A stretch of DNA of 64,000 nucleotides from Branchiostoma floridae (Eukaryota > Chordata > Leptocardii > Amphioxiformes > Branchiostomatidae). This document shows positions 3,572-27,500 of the stretch, piece after piece; position 1 is the first letter of the stretch; each line of letters opens with the position of its first letter. Under the pieces are notes generated by a model, which was not told the origin of the DNA, made no database searches, and saw only the letters and a program-made list of their open reading frames with translations. The DNA lies in NCBI RefSeq assembly GCF_000003815.2, contig NC_049985.1, positions 11,269,710 through 11,333,709 of the forward strand. The letters run 5' to 3'. The position numbers were made by a program, and so were the translations under genes.

Positions 3572-6500
3572 TCATAACCAGATGTCGGAGCTGCAGTCCC
3601 CGCCCGGGTAGCGCACCTCGTGTGCCAGGGCGGGTCCGTGCGGCTCCTGCCCGAAATCCACCAGGAAGGCAGGGTTCCGGGACAGCCCTCCAGCTTCTGT
3701 GTCCACATCGAGCTGAAACATCAGGGAACCCTCCCTGGTTGGTGGAGAGAAAGGCATGGATAACGTCACCAGTATGTAAATATGGTACAAAAGAATCTAG
3801 TCCAGAAAATAGTTATGGAATCCATAGCTAGTATACTCGAAGCATCCTAAGAATACGACCCTGTTTATCAGGCAATCCTGTGTTTTTATGTCTACATTTT
3901 ATCATTTAGAGCACGTTTTAAAATGTCCTTGAAATTGTACTTCATAATCTTATTTCCTATAAAAGTTGGCACGACAATCGCCTTCGTGAATATAAATTGA
4001 CTTCGGTGCATCAACGAAGGTCGGGCATCCAGGTAATATATAGAAGAAGAAGAAGAACTTGATTGCACGACAACTGTAGAGGATACAGTGTTTGGCAACT
4101 TGTACATACAATACATACAGAACAGTTTAACTACATGAGTTACTAGTATCAAAAAATCTAAGAGACTAATCTATTTTACAATAAGATATATGTTACTCAA
4201 GTTACACAACAAACTAGAGAGATTTTTTCTTACAAAATCTCGCCAATGCGTAACTAATATTTTATGTATTGGTAAGATTGACAATGCACTTTGACATAAA
4301 AGCAGTTCACAGCTGCATCTGAAGACCATTTTCAGAATGATTGCTTTTTCTAACTACTACTGTTGTCCCGCCTTACTTGATCATGTCCGGATAGAACTGT
4401 TTATCCCAGCTGCTGAACAGAGACGTGGTGACGTACAGACGCTTCCCGTCCAGACTGAGCTGCAGCATCTGCGGGGCGGATCCCTTCCTGCGCCGCCCGT
4501 TCAGCACCAGCGGGTCGGGCTGCTCCTCCAGCTCCGGGTCATGGGTCACGCGCACAGGACTGGCCTTGCAGATGCTGCCACCGAGGAATAGCTGTAGACA
4601 TGTGAAGGAAAACGGCGCCTTTTTAATTCCAAGTACAATCTATCCGGCTTCGCCAAATTAAAAGTAGCATTTTGATGGTCTAAGCCCATAGATCTTTTCC
4701 ACATCATGGTTGGAGGCTAGCGCCAATGGTGAACAAGATTAGTCGGCGAGGTTGCCCACTAGTCTTAAAAAGTCATCCTGACGATCCATTTTTTTTAATA
4801 AACATTTGAAAAGGTCATTATCTGCTCGGATACGAAGAGATGAGCGAACAAGATGGTTTCCAGGGTACGAACAACTTATATACTAAAGAGTGGTTGTGCC
4901 CGAAGTGGCTCCGAATGTGTGAATCGGCCTCCCCGAGTCAAAGACAAGAAACTTTAATTGTTTACTATATAATTCCTAACTCGTTACTCTTTGGGCACCG
5001 ACTGGCAGACTTCAAACTTAAAAGGTGAATATTCAAAGGTGAATAATCCAAACTAACGTTAATTCTTTTGATAAGGTAAGGGGGACACATTGATGAGGAA
5101 GATATATCTATTTATATATTTATTTATATATATATATTTATATATTTATATTTACCTGTCCAACCAGCTTCGGGTGGTTGCGGTCAGTGATGTCATATTG
5201 TCTGACGTCACCGTGTAGCCAGTTGCTGAAGTACAGGAACCGATCATCCATGGAGATCAGAATATCCGTGATCAGCCCTGGGGAAAATCAGGGAATATCG
5301 TAGTATGTACAAACGTTACAGGTGTTTTGGTGCTTCACGCTCGTCAAGATCATCCATTGACTTTGTGGATTAAAGAAGAGAAACCGATCTTCCTGTCTTA
5401 ATTTCTACCCAGTGGACCAAACATCACGGGTCTCATCCGTCCTTCGATCTTGGGACAACTATGTATGTCAGAATCATAGAAGTACGACGGCTATCATGTA
5501 CATGTATGTCAGAGTCATAGAAGTACAACCTTATATGTCAGAGTCATAGAAGTACAACCATGTATGACAGAGTCATAGAAGTGCAACCATGTATGCCAGA
5601 GTCATAGAAATACAACCATGTATGTCAGAGTCATAGAAGTACAACCATGTATGACAGAGTCATAGAAGTACAACCATGTATGCCAGAGTCATAGAAATAC
5701 AACCATGTATGTCAGAGTCATAGAAATACAACCATGTATGACAGAGTCATAGAAGTGCAACCATGTATGTCAGAGTCATAGAAATACAACCATGTATGTC
5801 AGAGTCATAGAAATACAACCTTGTATGCCAGAGTCATAGGAATACAATCATGTATGCCAGAGTCATAGAACAACCATGTATGTCTGAGAGTTGTTCAAAA
5901 TTCAGCTGCCTTGTAATGTCTTGACGGTCAGTTCTGGTAAACTTGAATGTCACTCACCTGGCATCTCAGGTAAGGCCCAGCCCTCCACATTTTTACTCGC
6001 AACGTCGATCACTTTCTCTGTGGCCCAGTCACCTTTCTACAGTGGATACGTCAAATTCAGCAAATATCACAATATTCTGAGGACATTGACAGGACAAAAA
6101 ATCATTTCTGAATATTATTTCAAAAGGAATCTATGAGCCTTTTTACATTTTGATGCCAACGGGCATACAACTACTGTATACGGTCTTGGGTCAGTATAGG
6201 AATTCATCAATGAATCGTCCTTACCGAAGATTTGTAGAACCTGAAGACACTGCTGCCCAGAGCACAGCCCACGTACCCTTGCGGTTCGTCCGGGTTGTGC
6301 AGGAACCTGACCTCCAATGGGATGGCGCCCTCTGGGCCGAGGTCAATGTCCTGGATGCGTCTGTGAGTTGTCCAGTCCCACACGTGCAGGCTCTGTCCGT
6401 ACAGACCTGGCGAAGTAGGACGATATGATTTGAATCGTAATCTTTCAAACACATGCTAGTGTGTTATGTACGTGTCCGTCATTTTCCCATAAGATCACAG

Positions 6501-11300: not shown

Positions 11301-12515
11301 CGCGTTTCCGCGACAATTTCCTTTATTTTCAGTCTTCCATGATGAACATTCGCGTAAGTAGCAATGCAGACTTGTCCTTAACCGTAAAGTTTACGTTTTG
11401 CTACTTTCCTAGGTATCAAGTCTTGTAGTGATTTGCATAACAGTACGTGTGGAAAGTGCCACTTCTAGCCGGACTTCATTTTGCAGAACTGACGCTTACG
11501 CAACATTTTGAAACGTTGCTAAACGTCGTATGCTACGTATGATGAGCACAGTACACAGTTTCCTAGGTTTTGCACTTTCTATAATGGCCTTGAACACGAC
11601 CCTCGTACAGCAGTTATCTAATTATAACAGGGCCCGATCGCAACATATATTTGCGAAAATTATAGACAATTCTCGTAATACGAAGAACAAAGTTCCGCCG
11701 GGGCCTTGTCCGTTAGGACAAAATGTAGTATCATAATTCATATTCATACACAAGACGAGCCCCACTACACTAGTGTTCACGTTACTCTAGATATGAATAC
11801 ATCAATGACAAGAAAGGTGATTTTTCTATATCTACAACTATCGAAATTAATCTTACATTCTAGAAAAATAATTTGATGCCCCCAAAAGTCATTTGTAAAA
11901 AAAGTTTGAAAACAAAAGTTCATGTTAAGTTTCCTGTATGTTTTGTTTAATCCTAGTTCACCAATATATGCAAACAAGGCTTTGTTTAACATTACATGAA
12001 TCCAGAAATTGACTATCCTTCCACTGTTTGGTACATTTACTAAGTACATAACTGAAAGGTCAAAACAACATCTCCTGACCTAGCAGCTTCTTCCATTTAT
12101 GTCATGAACTGAAATGTCTTAAGTGATGACAATAAGATTCTATTTTTTTCTGTCGGCCTTGGAGTAGACCTTTTAATTTATACTTCTTGCCAGTTTACAG
12201 TTATGAAACGTTTAGGGGTGTTTGGTGTAGTTACACCATTTCCACCTCACATACTGTCACTCTACTGTATTCAAATGATATGATCACACAACAACACAAA
12301 CATACAGACACGCTGAAAACTAGCCTCTACCAGGCTCCGTGGTTTGATGGTCTAATTGTCGAAATTGGACAAATAGAGTCAATAGTACGCTAGGGGAGTC
12401 AGCCGGCAGAGTAGGTCCATTTTTCAAACCACGAGCCTGTGCGCACTCGGCATCGTCTTTGTAGTCGACTAATCGCTATCTAATAGGTGCGAAGTGGTTA
12501 AATTACCCTTTTATG
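11300..12515. other. Probable 5' intron of the RNF14 gene, no exon recognised
   Basis: The RWD domain expected at the N-terminus of RNF14 was sought here and not seen on the plus strand. It may lie in the gap that follows. Short open frames (11530-11736, 12187-12393) have no recognisable domains. Confidence 0.4.
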
Positions 12516-12615
12516 NNNNNNNNNNNNNNNNNNNNNNNNNNNNNNNNNNNNNNNNNNNNNNNNNNNNNNNNNNNNNNNNNNNNNNNNNNNNNNNNNNNNN
12601 NNNNNNNNNNNNNNN
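12516..12615. other. Assembly gap (100 N)
   Basis: 100 N immediately before the first recognisable RNF14 exon. It probably hides the start of that exon and perhaps the RWD-coding exons. Confidence 0.98.
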
Positions 12616-15600
12616 AGGAGAAGAAGGAGGGTGGTGAAGAAATCCACAAGAAATTTGGCCATGGTGGTAGAGACAACTTTTGGAGAGGGGCACGGGGTAG
12701 GGAAAGGGGTCGGGGGAGGGGCACAGGTAGGGGTAGACACCAACCTGGACAGTCAGCTGGAGAATGGAAAGGCTACCAGAAGTATGGCAGAAGTGAAAGA
12801 AATGATGAGTATGGCAAATATAAGGGGAGAACCAGGGAATGGAAGGATGAAGAAAAGAGAAGGAAGAATACACCACATGAAGACAATAGGTATAAAACAC
12901 AAAGACAAGGAAGGGGTGGCCATAAGAATTCTCGGGAAAGGAAATGGCAAGAAGAAGAGGAAAGAACTGATCTAAGGACTAGAGAAAATCAACAAACCGA
13001 CCACAAATATGGTAACAAGGCTGATAACACCATAGGTACTGATAAAAATGAACCAGACTCACCAGTGACTTTGATAGACATGCCTGATGAAGAGAATGAA
13101 AGAGAGACAACTAAAGAGGTTGGAGACCTGAGAGCGATCCAAGACCTTGCCTCTCCATCCCTGCTGGTGCCAGCTCTTGTTGAGTATGACCAGGAGAGGA
13201 GACAGCACATGTTCAACACCACCATGTACAACTGTAACGTGTGCTTTGGTGAGAAGCTCGGGGCAGACTGCATCGGCTTTAAGGGCTGCGACCATGTGTA
13301 CTGTAAAGAGTGCATGAAAGGCTACTTCCAGGTAAGACGACTTCTTTAGAAAGCTCAAGTCATTTGGGGTTATGGAAAGGTCATAGACTTGTTGCTACAG
13401 TTGTATAAAGGGCACTCAGAAAGTGGTGGGCCTTTCTAGGATGGAATTGGTAAAAGACTTTTGGTCATGACTATAGAATACTTCTACAAAGTCTTATCTG
13501 TATCCATCAAATTTCAAATTCATCAAATAGCATCATCTTCGATATTGTATTTGAACATCAATAGGTGATTCCTCTTTTTAAGACTGCACTGAACTTGCAA
13601 TGCCTATTGCATTTACTAACTTTATATTAGAAAATGACACCTTGTGTAATAAATGTTTTGGATCCCAGGTGCAGATATCAGAGGGGAATGTGCAATGTCT
13701 GCAGTGTCCAGAACCTAAGTGTGAATCACAGGCACTTCCTTCTCAGGTCAGTAGGGGTTCTTATTCTCATGTTTTCCAGATACATGTTACAATGCTCTCA
13801 ATATAATCTACATGAAGTGCTACTATTACAGCAACAGTAATAATAGTGGATGTACATGCATAGTGTCCTCTTCACATTCAATTGGGCACATGGCATTTTA
13901 TATATCTGCAGTGTCTGTGGAAGTGGTAGTTTTGCACTGTCAGACAGATACACAGGTTTGATTACTGATGTACTCTCCAGGTGCAGGAGTTTGTTGGAGG
14001 AGAGTTGTTTGCCCGCTGTGTGGTAGTTTTATACTGTAACAGACAGATATACAGGTTTGATCACTGATGTTGTTCCCCTACAGGTGCAGGAGCTTGTTGG
14101 AGGAGAGTTGTTTGCTCTCTGTGTGGTAGTCTTATACTGTAAGAGACAGATACACAGGTTTGATCACTGATGTTGTTACACTCCAGGTGCAGGAGCTTGT
14201 TGGAGGAGAGTTGTTTGCTCTCTGTGTGGTAGTCTTATACTGTAAGAGACAGATACACAGGTTTGATTACTGATGTACTCTCCAGGTGCAGGAGTTTGTT
14301 GGAGGAGAGTTGTTTGCTCTCTGTGTGGTAGAGTCTTATACTGTAACAGACAGATACACAGGTTTGATCACTGATGTTGTTCCCCTACAGGTGCAGGAGC
14401 TTGTTGGAGGAGAGTTGTTTGCTCTCTGTGTGGTAGTCTTATACTGTAAGAGACAGATACACAGGTTTGATTACTGATGTTGTTACACTCCAGGTGCAGG
14501 AGCTTGTTGGAGGAGAGTTGTTTGCCCGCTGTGTGGTAGAGTCTTATACTGTAAGAGACAGATACACAGGTTTGATCACTGATGTTATTATGTACTCTCC
14601 AGGTGCAGGAGTTTGTTGGAGGAGAGTTGTTTGCTCTCTGTGTGGTAGAGTCTTATACTGTAAGAGACAGATACACAGGTTTGATTACTGATGTTGTTAC
14701 ACTCCAGGTGCAGGAGCTTGTTGGAGGAGAGTTGTTTGCCCGCTGTGTGGTAGAGTCTTATACTGTAAGAGACAGATACACAGGTTTGATCACTGATGTT
14801 ATTATGTACTCTCCAGGTGCAGGAGCTTGTTGGAGGAGAGTTGTTTGCCCGCTGTGTGGTAGAGTCTTATACTGTAAGAGACAGATACACAGGTTTGATC
14901 ACTGATGTTATTATGTGCTCTCCAGGTGCAGGAGCTTGTTGGAGGAGAGTTGTTTGCTCGCTGTGTGGTAGTTTTATACTGTAAGAGACAGATACACAGG
15001 TTTGATCACTGATGTTGTTCCCCTACAGGTGCAGGAGCTTGTTGGAGGAGAGTTGTTTGCTCTCTGTGTGGTAGTTTTATACTGTAAGAGACAGATACAC
15101 AGGTTTGATCACAGATGTTGTTACACTCCAGGTGCAGGAGCTTGTTGGAGGAGAGTTGTTTGCTCGCTATGACCGGCTCCTGCTCCAGTCCAGTCTGGAG
15201 GGGATGGCGGACGTCGTGTATTGCCCGCGCAAGTCGTGCCAGTGTCCCGTCATGCTGGAACCCGACAGCAAGATGGCGGGATGTACGGCGTGTGGGTACA
15301 CCTTCTGTACGCTCTGCAAGCTGGCGTACCATGGTGTGTCACCGTGCAGAATCAAACCAGGTGTGATTGTTTGTTTGTTTCTTTTCCATAACTGATAAAC
15401 AGCCTTCAGACATAAGACATCAGTTTTGTACAGTATGTTCAAGCTGCATGAGTTCAGACTGTAAGGTTTGCTCTACTCAAAGATGGAACCTCCAGCTTTA
15501 CATTCTATCTTAAAGAAAGTCCCTAATTGAAGCTAGGTACTCAATTTCATCCAAGTCAAGTAAGGAAAAAGGTGTTGAGGGCCTCTGGTAATGGCACAAC

Positions 15601-16634
15601 TTTTGGAGCCCACTAGGGATTCAAATCCAACACCTTTACTTTAGATTTTTCACCAGCAGCCTTAACCACAAGATCACCATGCCACTTCTGTTTCCATCTG
15701 GCAGTGCTTACTCCTTGTTTAGGCATAGAGGAGAAATGTCGACCTGACTGAACTTGACACTAAGCACAATGTCACACTATTTAGGAAGGAGCTCTTACAT
15801 TCTTTTTGTAACTCAATATTTCATTGCACTTTCAGATGACCTACGAAAGCTGCGTGAGGAATATCTGGCAGCCAGTGATGAAGGAAAGAAGTTTCTGGAG
15901 AAGCGTTACGGAAAGAAGTCCATTAAACAGGCCCTGGAGGAGACCTTCAGCGAGGAGTGGCTGAAGAAGTATGCCAAGGAGTGTCCTCAGTGTGGGACAC
16001 ACATACAGGTTGGTCACTTGGGCTTACTTAATATGCAAATTAGACTATAAGGGTAGAAAGATACATTAAATTTTGTATTTCCCAAATATGCAAAATGCAG
16101 ATGTAAGGATATCTGTGGAAGGATTTGCATTTTTGTACTCTTTGCTCCAAACACTTGCCTCAAGGTGTCTTGTACTGTCATGCATAGGTCAAATATCCCA
16201 AGTATTCTTCAATCCACTGGCATGTCTTTCTTAAAGCTTTATTCTTATAACTTGGTAAACCTACCTGTCAAAAGTATCTGCTCTTTTGAATTACTCCCAG
16301 TTGACTTAATGGCAATACAGTGTGTGAACAGTATTTAGTTTGGTTTGGTTTTATGCATTGCTGCGAGCAAAAAAGGATGCTTTTGATATTGAAAACACTT
16401 TGGTTCTATTTCTAGAAACTTGACGGCTGTAACAAGATGACTTGCATCAAGTGCCGTGCCTACTTCTGCTGGCTGTGTGGCATGATACTCCACCACAGCA
16501 ACCCTTACGGGCACTTCAACAAGCCTGGCTCCAAGTGTTTCAACCTGCTGTTCCAGGGGATGGAGGAGGGGGAGGGTGGGGAGGAGGAGTTTGAGGATGA
16601 GGAGGATGACTGGGATTGGATAGTGTTTGCATGA
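12616..16634 (+). CDS. RNF14: RBR E3 ubiquitin ligase, RNF14-type (5' part in gap)
   Basis: Exons: 12616-13331 (start in gap), 13669-13746, 15132-15360, 15836-16008, 16416-16634 (TGA). Phases agree at every junction. The product has an Arg/Gly/Glu/Lys-rich linker of about 180 residues, then RING1 (YNCNVCFGEKLG...CDHVYCKECMKGYF), an in-between-RING segment (ELFARYDRLLLQSSLEGMADVVYCP...CTACGYTFCTLCKLAYHGVSPC), and RING2 (CPQCGTHIQKLDGCNKMTC...CRAYFCWLCG). The DGCNKMTC segment holds the catalytic cysteine of RBR ligases, which accepts ubiquitin from the E2 before transfer. RNF14 proteins act on stalled ribosomes and transcription factors in vertebrates. The C-terminus is very acidic, ending DDWDWIVFA. 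The usual N-terminal RWD domain is not visible. The long intron 13747-15131 contains the cassette array described separately. Confidence 0.93.
13912..15131 (+). repeat. Array of 11 exon-like cassettes in RNF14 intron
   Basis: Eleven units, 99-109 bp apart, have pseudo-exons starting at 13981, 14084, 14187, 14286, 14391, 14494, 14603, 14708, 14817, 14926 and 15029; the real exon starts at 15132 with the same spacing. Each unit has an acceptor (CTCCAG or CCTACAG), then a near-copy of the first ~40 nt of the real exon, then GTGTGGTAG..TTATACT and GTAAGA or GTAACA, which reads as a donor. Pseudo-exons are 57 nt in the copies at 14286, 14494, 14603, 14708 and 14817, and 55 nt in the rest. The 57-nt form reads VQEFVGGELFALCVVESYT or close variants with no stop. 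A half-unit at 13912-13980 shows the likely ancestral intron edge. No evidence of splicing is available here. Confidence 0.92.
15573..15690 (-). repeat. tRNA-derived SINE, degraded
   Basis: Read on the minus strand, TGGCATGGTGATCTTGTGGT (A-box-like) near 15690-15665 is followed by GGATTTGAATCCC (B-box-like) near 15630-15613. The spacing fits a tRNA-like RNA polymerase III promoter, but the cloverleaf arms are poor. It lies in the RNF14 intron 15361-15835. Confidence 0.5.
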
Positions 16635-21500: not shown

Positions 21501-24500
21501 GGCCGACAACTGTGGTAACGTTACGTGTATGTGGTGATTTCTTTGGATGTCTCCTGACATGATAAGTAACTGGCATATAACGTTAATTAAATAAATAAAA
21601 ATGTAGCGAGACCTGTTCGTTTTTCAAGTTCATACATAGAGCTGCCGTCTAAATGAAACACGGATTGGTGTCACGGTTGTAGTTAACCGATTTTTGAGTC
21701 AACAAGAACATTTGAGCAAAAAAACAACAACACATGACTACGTTAGACGCAAGGTCACTGCGTGTTGCCGGCTGTTACATAAAAAAACATGCATAACGAT
21801 CGTCATGCAAACTCAAAGTTTTACGCCTGAGACATAAAGGTATGTGAAACACAAACGATGGACTTGATGAGTTTATTTCGCTATTAAACTGACCCGAGTG
21901 AACAAACACGATTAACTGCAGCGTGGAACGCCCTCCCCATGTTAGGTCACGGTCATTCCGTTCACCTTGTTGTTTATCATGCACGAGTAAGTTACCACAG
22001 CGCTGCGTTGGTCCCCAGCAAGCAAGTGGAGCACGGAAACGAAGTCTGGGTGAATTACAATAAATCTACTTACAGCTTTATACACGGTGGGAGTGGCCGG
22101 CACAGCACAAATCCCCAGGCACAAATCAGCATAAGCCAACGCGAAAGTTAAGTGTAGCAGAAACCTAACCCCTTGAAGTTTGCATGATTGACAGGCGGAC
22201 GGGTTTGAAGTGTACCGACTGCGGCACGTATTGATAATGAGGGCATAAACAAACTACGTACATCAAACGTAAATCAAAATTGTTTGCTAAAAATAAAAGA
22301 AATTTATGAAATATGAATTGCGGGCTCTGAAAAAATGATTGGGCCGTTCAAAATATGAATGAATTTACACAGATTGACTGTGACAGGAAGCATAGCGGAG
22401 ATGTGCTGCGTACTGTGAAGATCACTTACAGTGTGCAGGGGTAGCCATATCAATTTCTGCTCTGAGAGTGTCCGGCAACTGCAGGACGTGAACGAATATA
22501 ATAGATTTGTGGCAATTTTAGCGATTACGCTAATCAGCTGTTTCTGTGAATTTGTGCGATTTACAGTAGTTGGTAAGGCCCCCTTTCGAAATTTCCACTA
22601 GACGGCGATCGCGCTGCGCTCTTACTGCGACATAAACAGGGTATGTGTAAAATTCGATTTCACACTGGGTATATGGTTCATAGAAAACGTAAATGTGTGA
22701 CTGAGCATGCTGAGGAGAACCCTTCACGCTGCGTTGTAAAAGCGGCAAACTCTGTGAGACGTTTCAAGCTGTGAATGTACCTTCCGATTTTGTGCTACGC
22801 AGTGTGCCGTAACTTGGTACGCTTGTTTTAATTTTGCTCTCTTCAGAAGTTAGTCTTATTCAAGTAGATAGAAACGAGAATTCAATTCTATAATATTTGA
22901 CAATAAAATTGTGACTGTATGTACTTCTTGTCTCATGTAAGGCTGTATCTAGCACAATCTAGCTGATGTTTTCACGGGTAAAGGGACTAAATGCACTGTT
23001 TGCGATGGTCCGACTAAGAAAATCATTACGAAAAAAACAACACCGCCAACATCAACAAATCTCTGCCTACCTTTTGGGAAATATCTTCGACATCTTAATT
23101 TTCATAGACGGTCAGCCCAAATTTGGTGCAACATGATGACACCGGTAGATTCGGTCCATATTTTATAAGCAGTCAATTAAAGAATCAAAAGCACACCTAT
23201 TTGTCACGATTCATGTAGGGCCCCGCCCCCGTATAGAGCGCAAGCATATGAGGTCCGATCGGCTTACCGGAGACTATTTTGAAAGTACCTTATTTAATTT
23301 CACATATTGTTCGATTTTTTTTACTTCTATGGTAGCAACAACTGACAGTTAATCGGGGCCGGGAAAATGACAACAAAAACATCGGCGCTAGCACGATGCG
23401 ACTGACCAGAACATTAGGGGGAGGGGCGCGGCACCGACTGGGTTCGACCAGTCGCTTCTCGCTTCTCTCTCGCCGCCGGCGCGCGTTAGGAATTATCTTC
23501 AAAGTCAGCACCGTCCGCAAACATCCGCTGATTTTTTAGAGATTTTTGCAAAATTTGTCTATACTTACGCGCCGAGTTTGTTCGTCAACAATGACGGAAA
23601 GCGCAAAATTAAACTTATTCTTATGTTATCAACTGAACTTCGCGGCTCGCGTTCTGCACCAAGTCAGAGACAGAGAATATGAATTTCCCAAGTGATTCAA
23701 AGCTTTATTTTTTAAACATTTGAATACATATTGTTGAAGGAAGCCAGTTTTTTTTTTCCATGGCTCTCTCTCCGCAAGCCAAGAAATTTCTCCCTGGACC
23801 TCCCCAAGCCGAAAAAATTCATAGGCCTTGACGCTCCCGCAGACGACACGCTAAATGTCGTCGAGTAAACCCTGTTGACGACCGTCAGAAATGGATAACC
23901 TTTTTGGACAGACAGACTGCCCCTGTGGCTTGTAGCTATGGGGCTGTGATGAGATGATGATGAGAAACCCTGTTTGGAACAATATTGGACGTTGTGTTCA
24001 TTATTCAAGATGTATAACGTTACAGATAAAAAATCATCAAAATTTATTTGTACCTTCTTGCATGTCTTGACTTATCCTGTGTCAACATCTGCAACTTAAT
24101 CAGTTTACCCTTCCAGGTAGAAATGCTAGACTAAACCATGTGAAGGTAACATTCTGTATTTGCTTGCAAATATTACCTTTCTAGTTGAAAATGTTTTTCA
24201 GATTACAAATAGTACCTAATGCTCAGTTCACCTTTATCTGCTGGGTAACCTATATCCGTTGTTTTAAAAACAGGGCACATAACTGTTAGACATCAAGTCG
24301 ATGGACAGAAGTTCCAAACTGGAATATTTTCAAAATGTATTGTAATTTGAAACCACCGGCCATCGACTTGATAGTTGTAATCTCAAATATACTGTATCCT
24401 GATTTTTAAACAACAGATATAGGTTACCCCACGAATAGAGGTGAACTAGAGTTACCAACTAGTACATACCATGAGGAGATAGGTTAGGGTTAGGGTTAGG

Positions 24501-27500
24501 GTTAGAGTTAGTCACCCGGTTAGGGCTAGAGTATTACCTTTTCTTTCTTTGGAGGCCTGAGTTGAAGCCATATGTTTTGTTCTTTACTGAGATCCAGCTT
24601 ACTGATGACCACGCTGGTCTGCCCCAGGAACTTTCTCCTCAGTTCACCCTCGTATGACAGAACCGCCAGTTCCACCGATCTGTGACACATGCCCTCATAC
24701 GACATGTCAATCACAAACGTCTGGTTGAAGAGAGGACTCTGGAAGCATGCCATGGATGGAAAAATAAGTTAAAAAGAGAACTGATAGTCCACTACTAGCA
24801 TATTTCAAATCCTCTACAGTGGAATACTAGCAATCTTGAATTCAGCACCAGGGAGAGAGACAGCATGGGAATTTTTTAGTAATCACATTTCACTTCCTTT
24901 TTTGTATATAACAAAGACTAAATAAGTTAGAAAAATAACTGGCAGTCAACTATATTTCAAATCCTCTAAACTGAATACAGGCATGTAAATATGTGCATAA
25001 AGCTGTCTGTACATATGTAAATACTTTTCGTTTTGGGACCGCATATGAACTGTGAGCAGCGACACCTGTCCTGCAGTACAATGTGAACCAGTCAGAATTG
25101 CCCCAAAGAAGGTGACAGACGGTCACCGAAATTTCAGTGAGAATAAAGTATTGGTTGTGTAAAAAGAGTCTCTTTATTCTGAATACAGCCAATCTTAAAT
25201 TCAGCACCATGGAGAGAGATTGCATGGAGAATTTTTCAGTGGTCACTTCTTTTTTTGTACATTGTACTACCTGATAACTAATAAAGACTACAAAGGAAAG
25301 AATTTCTTACTTTAAAACAATATTTTATATTTTCCAAAACATCTATGACTATTATCATTAATGATTTATAATAACTGTAAACAAAATTTGGGTATACGTA
25401 GGGAGCTGCATATGTTCGGTGTTAACAGAATGAATGTGTATTCAGGCTAGAAGACAATTTTGGGGCTTATGTTGACAAGTAGCAATAGAAACTTGAAATA
25501 TTTCCTTGTACTCCAGTCACAGCACACAAAGTGATAGTCCTACCTGTGTGGCCATGACATGGCGTGTTTTGAAGCCGTCCCTATGTCCCGGCATGATCCA
25601 GCCTCGGACATGCGGGTTAACTGTACAGGTACTGGTGTCATCCTGGTTACTGCTTGGTATGGCCAGGTCTACTGCCTGGAGAATTATTGAAAAAAAATCC
25701 TTGGTCTGGAACTGAAGCCTGGGTACATTGTTGCTAGTTTATTCACTCACACCAGAAAGTCTGGCATCCAAACTTTGGGGACTGAGGCCTGGGTACCATT
25801 GTTGCTAGTTTATTCACTCACACCAGAAAGTCTGGCATCCAAACTTTGGTAGGAGTGAGTTTGGGAGTGAGGAATAAACTAACAAGAATGGTACCCATGC
25901 AAGCTAGAGTCTGAATCAAAGTACACATAACATGCAATATGAGAACATAAAAAATGTTACTCAGATAGCAAGACCATATGCATGTTATTAGATAACTCTG
26001 TAACTGTGGAAAATTCTGATGAGTCTAATCTGTTTAGTTGGACTGTCACAGTACAATTTCTCCATAATGGAACTTACCAACTCAGATGAACTCTCTTGCA
26101 AACTTTTGAACATATTTAGATAGTCTTAATCTGTAATGAAATGTGAGAAATTGCTTTGTTATCAGATTCTTCTATGTTGTGTCCTGTACCTGAGCCACAG
26201 TGATTGACAGCTGTCCCGCCTCCCTGCGACACTGCAGTATGACATTGAGCTGTCCCAGGTAGGGGGTAGACATGCCCTCAGGTGAGGTCACCTGCACAAA
26301 GGGCTGGCTCATCCTGGGTGAGGCCGGACTCAACTGTGGAGACAAGTAGCAGGTATGTTGATTGTTGGACATGTGTGCTTGGGTGTAGACTGCTTTACAG
26401 GCTTCTAGCAATGCTGGCTTTTTTTGTGATTTTCAACTCTGATTTGTGATTTTCAATTTGGGCTAGATATAATATAAGGACCTCTAAAGCTAAAGGAGGG
26501 AGTTCTGCACTCGCCCGGAGACTTAACCCATGTTGAAAATCACAAATCAGTGCTCCTACAAAAAGTATCAGCCTGGCATGCTACTAGACGTACGTCTGCA
26601 AAGGTGTCCAGCTATTGTTTGCATATTACTGGTTAAGTCCCCTAAAAGCCATTTTTACCTTACTTAAGTTAAAGGCCAAACAAAATCTCTCTCACCTCTT
26701 GGCATTTGCCTTTGGTACCAAAGCCTTTCCCTTACAACCTATTTCTCTTTTGTCTGTGCTATATGCCTTGATGCGTGGTATTTATATTCATAGATTTTTG
26801 GTGGTTTGTCCACAGCATATTCACTTAGAATATGCATTTCCACCGTACTACTTACATTGTAACCACTGTACTGTAGAATTCTAACTAACCGCAAAGCACC
26901 ACAAAACCCCCTTTTACTCTTCATTATATAGCTTTTAATGTAAAAGTAAATGATGACAGTATCCAATGCTTTTACCTGACAGCTTTCCTCCATAGAAAGT
27001 CTCCTGGCACGTTTGGGTGACGGAGAGTTGTTGCTGTTGTGGCTGTTCTCTCCCACTAGGAGGAATTTCTTGAGTGGTGCAGGTGAGGGTGAACTGCTGG
27101 GTGGTGCTGACAGTGTCTCATCATTGTCTGACAAGTTGTACCTGATCCTGGTCTCTGAAAATGAGCCGGTCCGAGATCTCGACACATCTGTTAACATAAG
27201 GAATACGACCCAGACTGTAGTGCACTGCAGACCAACATTCTAATCTAAATAAAAACTACTGTCAAACAGTTATAACAGCTGCTGCTATAATTGTGACTTT
27301 TATAAATGGCATTCTTTCTATACATTTTGTCCACTTGTCAGTAAATATTTTGTTTGCTGCTACTTGTTGAATATTTGGCAACTCAAAAATGACAAAGAAT
27401 TTCTATGCAAGCTTGACTAAAGCAGTTCACTTCTCACAATATACACAGTGCAAAATCAAGAAAAAGTGGCAAAATCCTACATGGGTCAGACCTTAAGTAA

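Follow-up and report, generated by a model that had tools for sequence, protein, structure and literature searches.

An exon-like tandem array in an amphioxus RBR ubiquitin-ligase gene is most likely a mirage-type minisatellite

Eleven exon-like units in one intron

We analyzed a window of 64,000 nucleotides from the amphioxus Branchiostoma floridae (contig NC_049985.1, forward strand, positions 11,269,710 to 11,333,709), and in particular a tandem array that lies in an intron of a gene for an RBR ubiquitin ligase. The contig, C7 in our numbering, is part of a 513-Mb genome, and positions below are those of the window. The array sits between coding exons of 78 and 229 nt. These two exons and the following one share a single reading frame (Table 1), with ...CPEPKCESQALPSQ joined to VQELVGGELFARYDR... 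at the first junction, and the 160 residues that they jointly encode match the IBR domain (E = 1.9e-13).

Tandem Repeats Finder (TRF) describes the array as 11.8 copies with a period of 103 (score 1926), and also lists it as 5.9 copies with a period of 214. The acceptor CAG followed by GTGCAGGAG occurs 12 times: 11 times as a pseudo-acceptor (exon starts at 13981 to 15029) and once as the real acceptor, at 15132. Each full unit combines the CAG acceptor with 40 nt copied from the start of the real exon, 15 or 17 nt that derive from the intron, and a GT donor. In other words, the tandem unit spans an intron-exon boundary, and it contains a pseudo-exon of 55 nt (six units) or 57 nt (five units). 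The donor is GTAAGA in nine units and GTAACA in units 1 and 4. An earlier note on this DNA (the original prediction) had described these cassettes, with their positions and lengths, and had explained the pseudo-exons as the start of the exon joined to intron sequence; unit alignment bears out both statements. At 15110-15117, the real acceptor copy reads CACAGATG, while all 11 pseudo-units have CACTGATG or TACTGATG.

Table 1. Coding exons, array and pseudo-exons (positions within the window)
Feature	Length	Position	Strand	Donor	Basis and remarks
Upstream coding exon	78 nt	13669..13746	+		In-frame translation joined to next exon; ends ...CPEPKCESQALPSQ
Mirage minisatellite		13942..15168	+		TRF, unit cutting, alignment; 11 full units of 99-109 bp and a partial unit (intron end and real exon start)
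Pseudo-exon 1	55 nt	13981..14035	+	GTAACA	Unit cutting
Pseudo-exon 2	55 nt	14084..14138	+	GTAAGA	Unit cutting
Pseudo-exon 3	55 nt	14187..14241	+	GTAAGA	Unit cutting
Pseudo-exon 4	57 nt	14286..14342	+	GTAACA	Unit cutting
Pseudo-exon 5	55 nt	14391..14445	+	GTAAGA	Unit cutting
Pseudo-exon 6	57 nt	14494..14550	+	GTAAGA	Unit cutting
Pseudo-exon 7	57 nt	14603..14659	+	GTAAGA	Unit cutting
Pseudo-exon 8	57 nt	14708..14764	+	GTAAGA	Unit cutting, alignment; unit identical to unit 6
Pseudo-exon 9	57 nt	14817..14873	+	GTAAGA	Unit cutting
Pseudo-exon 10	55 nt	14926..14980	+	GTAAGA	Unit cutting
Pseudo-exon 11	55 nt	15029..15083	+	GTAAGA	Unit cutting
Real exon, IBR domain	229 nt	15132..15360	+		Alignment, frame, domain match; first 40 nt are the repeated exon part
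Next coding exon	173 nt	15836..16008	+		In-frame translation

Turnover and origin of the units

The units are very similar, with a mean pairwise identity of 0.951. Just 20 of the 109 alignment columns vary, and 11 of those are within a polypyrimidine block of 17 columns. Units 6 and 8 are identical, and units 7 and 9 differ by three. Among lags of 1 to 7 units, the mean number of differences is lowest at lag 3 (4.5). This likeness at lag 3, and the local likeness at lag 2, fit a history in which units were duplicated in blocks. The identity of units 6 and 8 and the lag pattern point to turnover of units (concerted evolution). A dispersed repeat or transposon is unsupported, as a DNA search of the genome (which skips very common words) reported the array itself as the only match.

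The copy number of repeats is easily misassembled, and a gap of Ns (12516-12615) lies 1.3 kb upstream of the array, so we considered whether the repeat was misassembled or wrongly expanded. But the units differ by substitutions and by indels, and there is unique gene sequence on both sides of the array, which makes an artefact extremely improbable. The copy number in individuals may differ from that of the assembly.

We infer that a segment running from the intron end into the first 40 nt or so of the exon was duplicated in tandem, and that the duplication grew to 11 extra copies by unequal exchange or slippage. The acceptor and exon start of every unit would come from this segment, and a GT in its intronic part would serve as a cryptic donor, of modest strength in nine units and poor in the other two. 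The near-identity of the units suggests that they are recent or were homogenised. Most likely, the array is removed with the intron, and the real exon is used via its own acceptor (15132) and its better donor. At worst, the array might cause mis-splicing at a low level.

Effects of inclusion on the reading frame

If a single 55-nt copy is included, the real exon runs into a TGA at offset 38 (6/6 copies), and if a single 57-nt copy is included, 19 residues are added in frame (5/5). Across the 2048 possible combinations of copies, 32 are open over the three exons that we tested. These are the combinations with no 55-nt copy, including the empty one; the other 2016 have a stop within the tested exons. 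What the original prediction said about frames was exact.

One way to read these frames is as a poison-exon array: inclusion of any 55-nt copy would lead to an early TGA and to decay of the mRNA, so that output would be lowered, with a strength set by the copy number. The TGA in 6 of the 11 single inclusions, and the stop in nearly all of the combinations, fit this idea. However, the 57-nt copies do not give a premature stop, and cassettes of arbitrary length would mostly break the frame too. Poison exons and Alu-type exonisation are familiar cases in which an intron contains a cryptic exon that can introduce a stop when included. The putative pseudo-exons of the RBR gene resemble them in these respects, but those cases are supported by transcripts, while ours are predicted from sequence.

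Alternatively, the 57-nt copies, which are in frame, might lengthen the protein between RING1 and the IBR domain by at least 19 residues. All five are open singly, and so are all 32 combinations without a 55-nt copy. But an in-frame length is a 1-in-3 event, and the 17-nt tail of these copies is derived from the intron. Also, three columns vary in the part copied from the exon, and residues are changed at two of them (L/F and R/L), which argues against coding constraint, and the linker between RING1 and IBR is conserved in RNF14 proteins. We consider a length-variable protein to be even less probable than a poison-exon array, which is itself very unlikely.

Splice-site quality and constraint

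We scored donors with a textbook donor matrix. GTAAGA after an exon end of ACT scores 1.11, and GTAACA scores −2.96. The four exon-end donors that we inferred for the RBR gene score 7.01, 4.6, 3.91, and 2.04. On the + strand of the window, 247 of 3919 GTs score at least 1.11, and 1256 of 3919 are as good as or better than GTAACA. More broadly, a donor as good as GTAAGA is present in about 30-31% of the window's 105-bp stretches (2621 of 8810 on the + strand and 2788 of 9011 on the − strand), so an exon-like unit can arise without selection. That the donors are modest, or poor in units 1 and 4, also counts against a poison-exon array.

The original prediction emphasized that every donor and acceptor is preserved. 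This is correct for the GT and AG dinucleotides, but the two GTAACA donors score very low. Nor are the splice dinucleotides kept more than their surroundings, beyond chance. None of the four AG/GT columns varies, but the same would hold for four columns drawn at random with P = 0.44, or P = 0.66 outside of the polypyrimidine block. Similarly, if we count substitutions by cell, there are 0 at the AG and GT sites instead of the expected 1.49 (P = 0.23). Neither the column test nor the cell test supports selection on the splice sites of this array, and the lack of a clear sign of it counts against a poison-exon array.

Boundary arrays at other exons

Arrays at the edge of the exon are present at 7 of 66 other exon loci that we sampled, which is a rough rate because the sample includes some adjacent exons or near-duplicate genes, as well as several Ras matches that look intronless. 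The first 54 loci, which we considered with 1.5-kb flanks, comprise 7 IBR matches (L002-L008), 9 globin matches (L010-L018), 8 RWD matches (L020-L027), and 30 of the 150 Ras matches (L030-L059); 6 of these have boundary arrays. The other 12 loci are the first 12 of 118 RRM matches (L060-L071), with 0.6-kb flanks, and 1 of them has a boundary array. We considered arrays with a period of 20 or more that were at most 120 bp from the match, and then judged them by eye. The arrays at L004, L006, and L018 were already known before we set this criterion, and the globin family was picked as a positive control. If we exclude the 16 loci that we viewed before setting the criterion, boundary arrays remain at 4 of 50 loci; if we exclude only the globins, 6 of 57.

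The positive loci are L004, L006, L018, L025, L039, L043, and L070. L004 and L006 are two of the seven other IBR loci. L018 belongs to the globin family and has an acceptor array of 4.2 copies of 158 bp, which resembles that of the globin BflGb6; we infer that L018 is BflGb6. L004 and L043 have arrays at both edges of the exon, and the weakest case is L025, whose array is on the donor side. At L004 (G000:C17:19103184-19103318), the acceptor-side array has 2.1 copies of 108 bp and the donor-side array has 5.3 copies of 37 bp. One of five donor copies there has AT instead of GT, which implies that donor-side copies can decay. At L043 (a Ras-family match at G000:C7, 25724096-25724290, minus strand), there are five acceptor copies, one of them being the real acceptor, and five copies of a GGTAAGT donor (period 77).

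Four other loci with arrays were not counted. L016 has a 21-bp array that lies 84 bp before the match and does not contact it. The arrays at L061 begin 41 bp past the match and look like a glycine-rich coding repeat, and those at L066 and L069 are over 120 bp from the match.

We examined the units of five further acceptor arrays, and AG is kept in all 15 of their extra acceptor copies. With a cut-off of 1.0 for donors, acceptors are paired with donors in L006 (2 of 3 units) and L039 (4 of 4 units), with the donors inside exon-derived sequence; at this cut-off, no paired units were found in L004, L018, or L043.

Comparison to known mirages

In amphioxus, minisatellite-like tandem duplications of an intron-exon boundary are known as mirages, and were described in the globins BflGb6 and BflGb9 (PMC3087553) and in Adh3 (Canestro et al. 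2002, as cited in PMC3087553). AG and GT signals are present in many but not all of the units, and the copy number varies between haplotypes. PGBD5 and, by citation, troponin C were added as mirage-type cases (PMC3902484).

The array in the RBR gene has much in common with these. As in the BflGb6 mirage, the 3' end of the intron and the 5' part of the exon are repeated in tandem, and as in the globin mirages generally, unit identity is high, many units have splice signals, and the animal group is the same (PMC3087553). In lancelet PGBD5, repeats of 108 bp and 60 bp also cover splice sites (PMC3902484). The RBR gene differs in having 11 extra copies, as opposed to 6 repeat units in one BflGb6 haplotype and 3 in the other (PMC3087553), or 2 copies of 60 bp and 3 of 108 bp on the PGBD5 scaffold described (7 and 6 in another assembly; PMC3902484). 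Also, a GTAAGA donor from the intron is present in 9 of the 11 units, so that the units of the RBR gene, unlike those of BflGb6 and BflGb9, look like complete exons.

Data for Adh3 and reverse-transcription PCR of globins suggest that mirages do not disturb regular splicing (PMC3087553), and undisturbed splicing was reported for troponin C as well (PMC3902484, by citation). For PGBD5, normal splicing is argued rather than demonstrated (PMC3902484). A gene prediction took the PGBD5 copies for an exon, but without support from expressed sequence tags or mRNAs (PMC3902484). That mirages with RNA data reportedly splice normally (PMC3087553, PMC3902484) is another argument against a poison-exon array.

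Among the titles returned by a literature search for RNF14 with amphioxus, none concerned the array in the RBR gene, and judging by titles, our searches found no genome-wide survey of mirages.

A neutral repeat or a splicing switch?

We conclude, with a probability of about 88%, that the array in the RBR gene is an ordinary amphioxus mirage minisatellite and most likely a neutral repeat, instead of a splicing switch. This conclusion rests on the known type of amphioxus repeat, the arrays of this type at 7 of 66 other loci, the preservation of splice sites that is within chance, and the modest donors. The original prediction raised a possible length-variable or poison-exon switch, and named a neutral intronic repeat as the alternative. 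It is the alternative that we favour: the anatomy, frames, and origin were right, but for the reasons just given, a function as a poison exon or length switch seems unlikely from the sequence.

Several observations weigh against neutrality. First, all 11 pseudo-acceptors are intact, and their tracts have 9-11 pyrimidines of 15, compared to 9 of 15 for the real acceptor. Second, all 11 pseudo-units have a branch-point-like CTGAT motif where the real copy has CAGAT. Both features speak for a poison-exon array. The CTGAT/CAGAT difference is unexplained and slightly favours the decoys being usable, but this is a small point. Third, of the six acceptor arrays (at the cut-off of 1.0), only the one in the RBR gene has a recurrent donor outside of the exon-derived part (9 of 11 units). 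Fourth, mirage sites were proposed as potential cryptic splice sites and as a possible source of new exons or introns (PMC3087553). Finally, if we pool the six arrays, there are 0 changes at AG while 4.27 cells are expected (P = 0.014). This pooled test leaves out L070 and L025, its search seeds contained AG, and its cells are not independent. Given the shared descent of changes, those seeds, and the P = 0.15 of the corresponding test on variable columns, we do not regard the pooled result as proof. Constraint on acceptors across the six arrays is not shown.

It is conceivable, if very improbable, that the array is a splicing rheostat that varies with copy number: each pseudo-exon would add a chance of unproductive inclusion, so that the number of repeats would tune the output of an RNF14-type ubiquitin ligase. 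More broadly, the many amphioxus mirages would be a lasting supply of partly formed exons with acceptors that remain usable.

As a mirage, the array surpasses the others that we examined in length and in likeness to exons, and its anatomy is real and striking. It adds one long and unusually exon-like case to the mirages of amphioxus. Judging by the sampled loci, boundary arrays may be common across this genome. If so, amphioxus would be a good test bed for the ability of spliceosomes to pass over decoy sites that are near-perfect, and also for tandem duplication as a seed of new exons or introns, as proposed in PMC3087553.

The gene and other repeats

We take the protein encoded in the window to be RNF14-like, based on similarity and on its name in the original prediction. 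None of the 8 RWD matches in the genome is on contig C7, and we did not recognise an RWD exon upstream of the RING1 frame. In that region (12465-13331), a long RG/E-rich stretch starts directly after the 100-N gap, ahead of the RING1 frame. A second RNF14-like gene (L028, G000:C15:6792000-6801900, minus strand) has an RWD match and an IBR exon about 3.3 kb apart, and a RING1-like frame lies between the two. In this 9.9-kb stretch, TRF found only arrays with periods of 4-16.

The window contains two further tandem arrays, at 5501-5888 (13.5 copies of 29 bp) and at 25711-25849 (2.0 copies of 71 bp). At 24482-24511, GGTTAG is repeated five times, which is a short interstitial telomere-like repeat.
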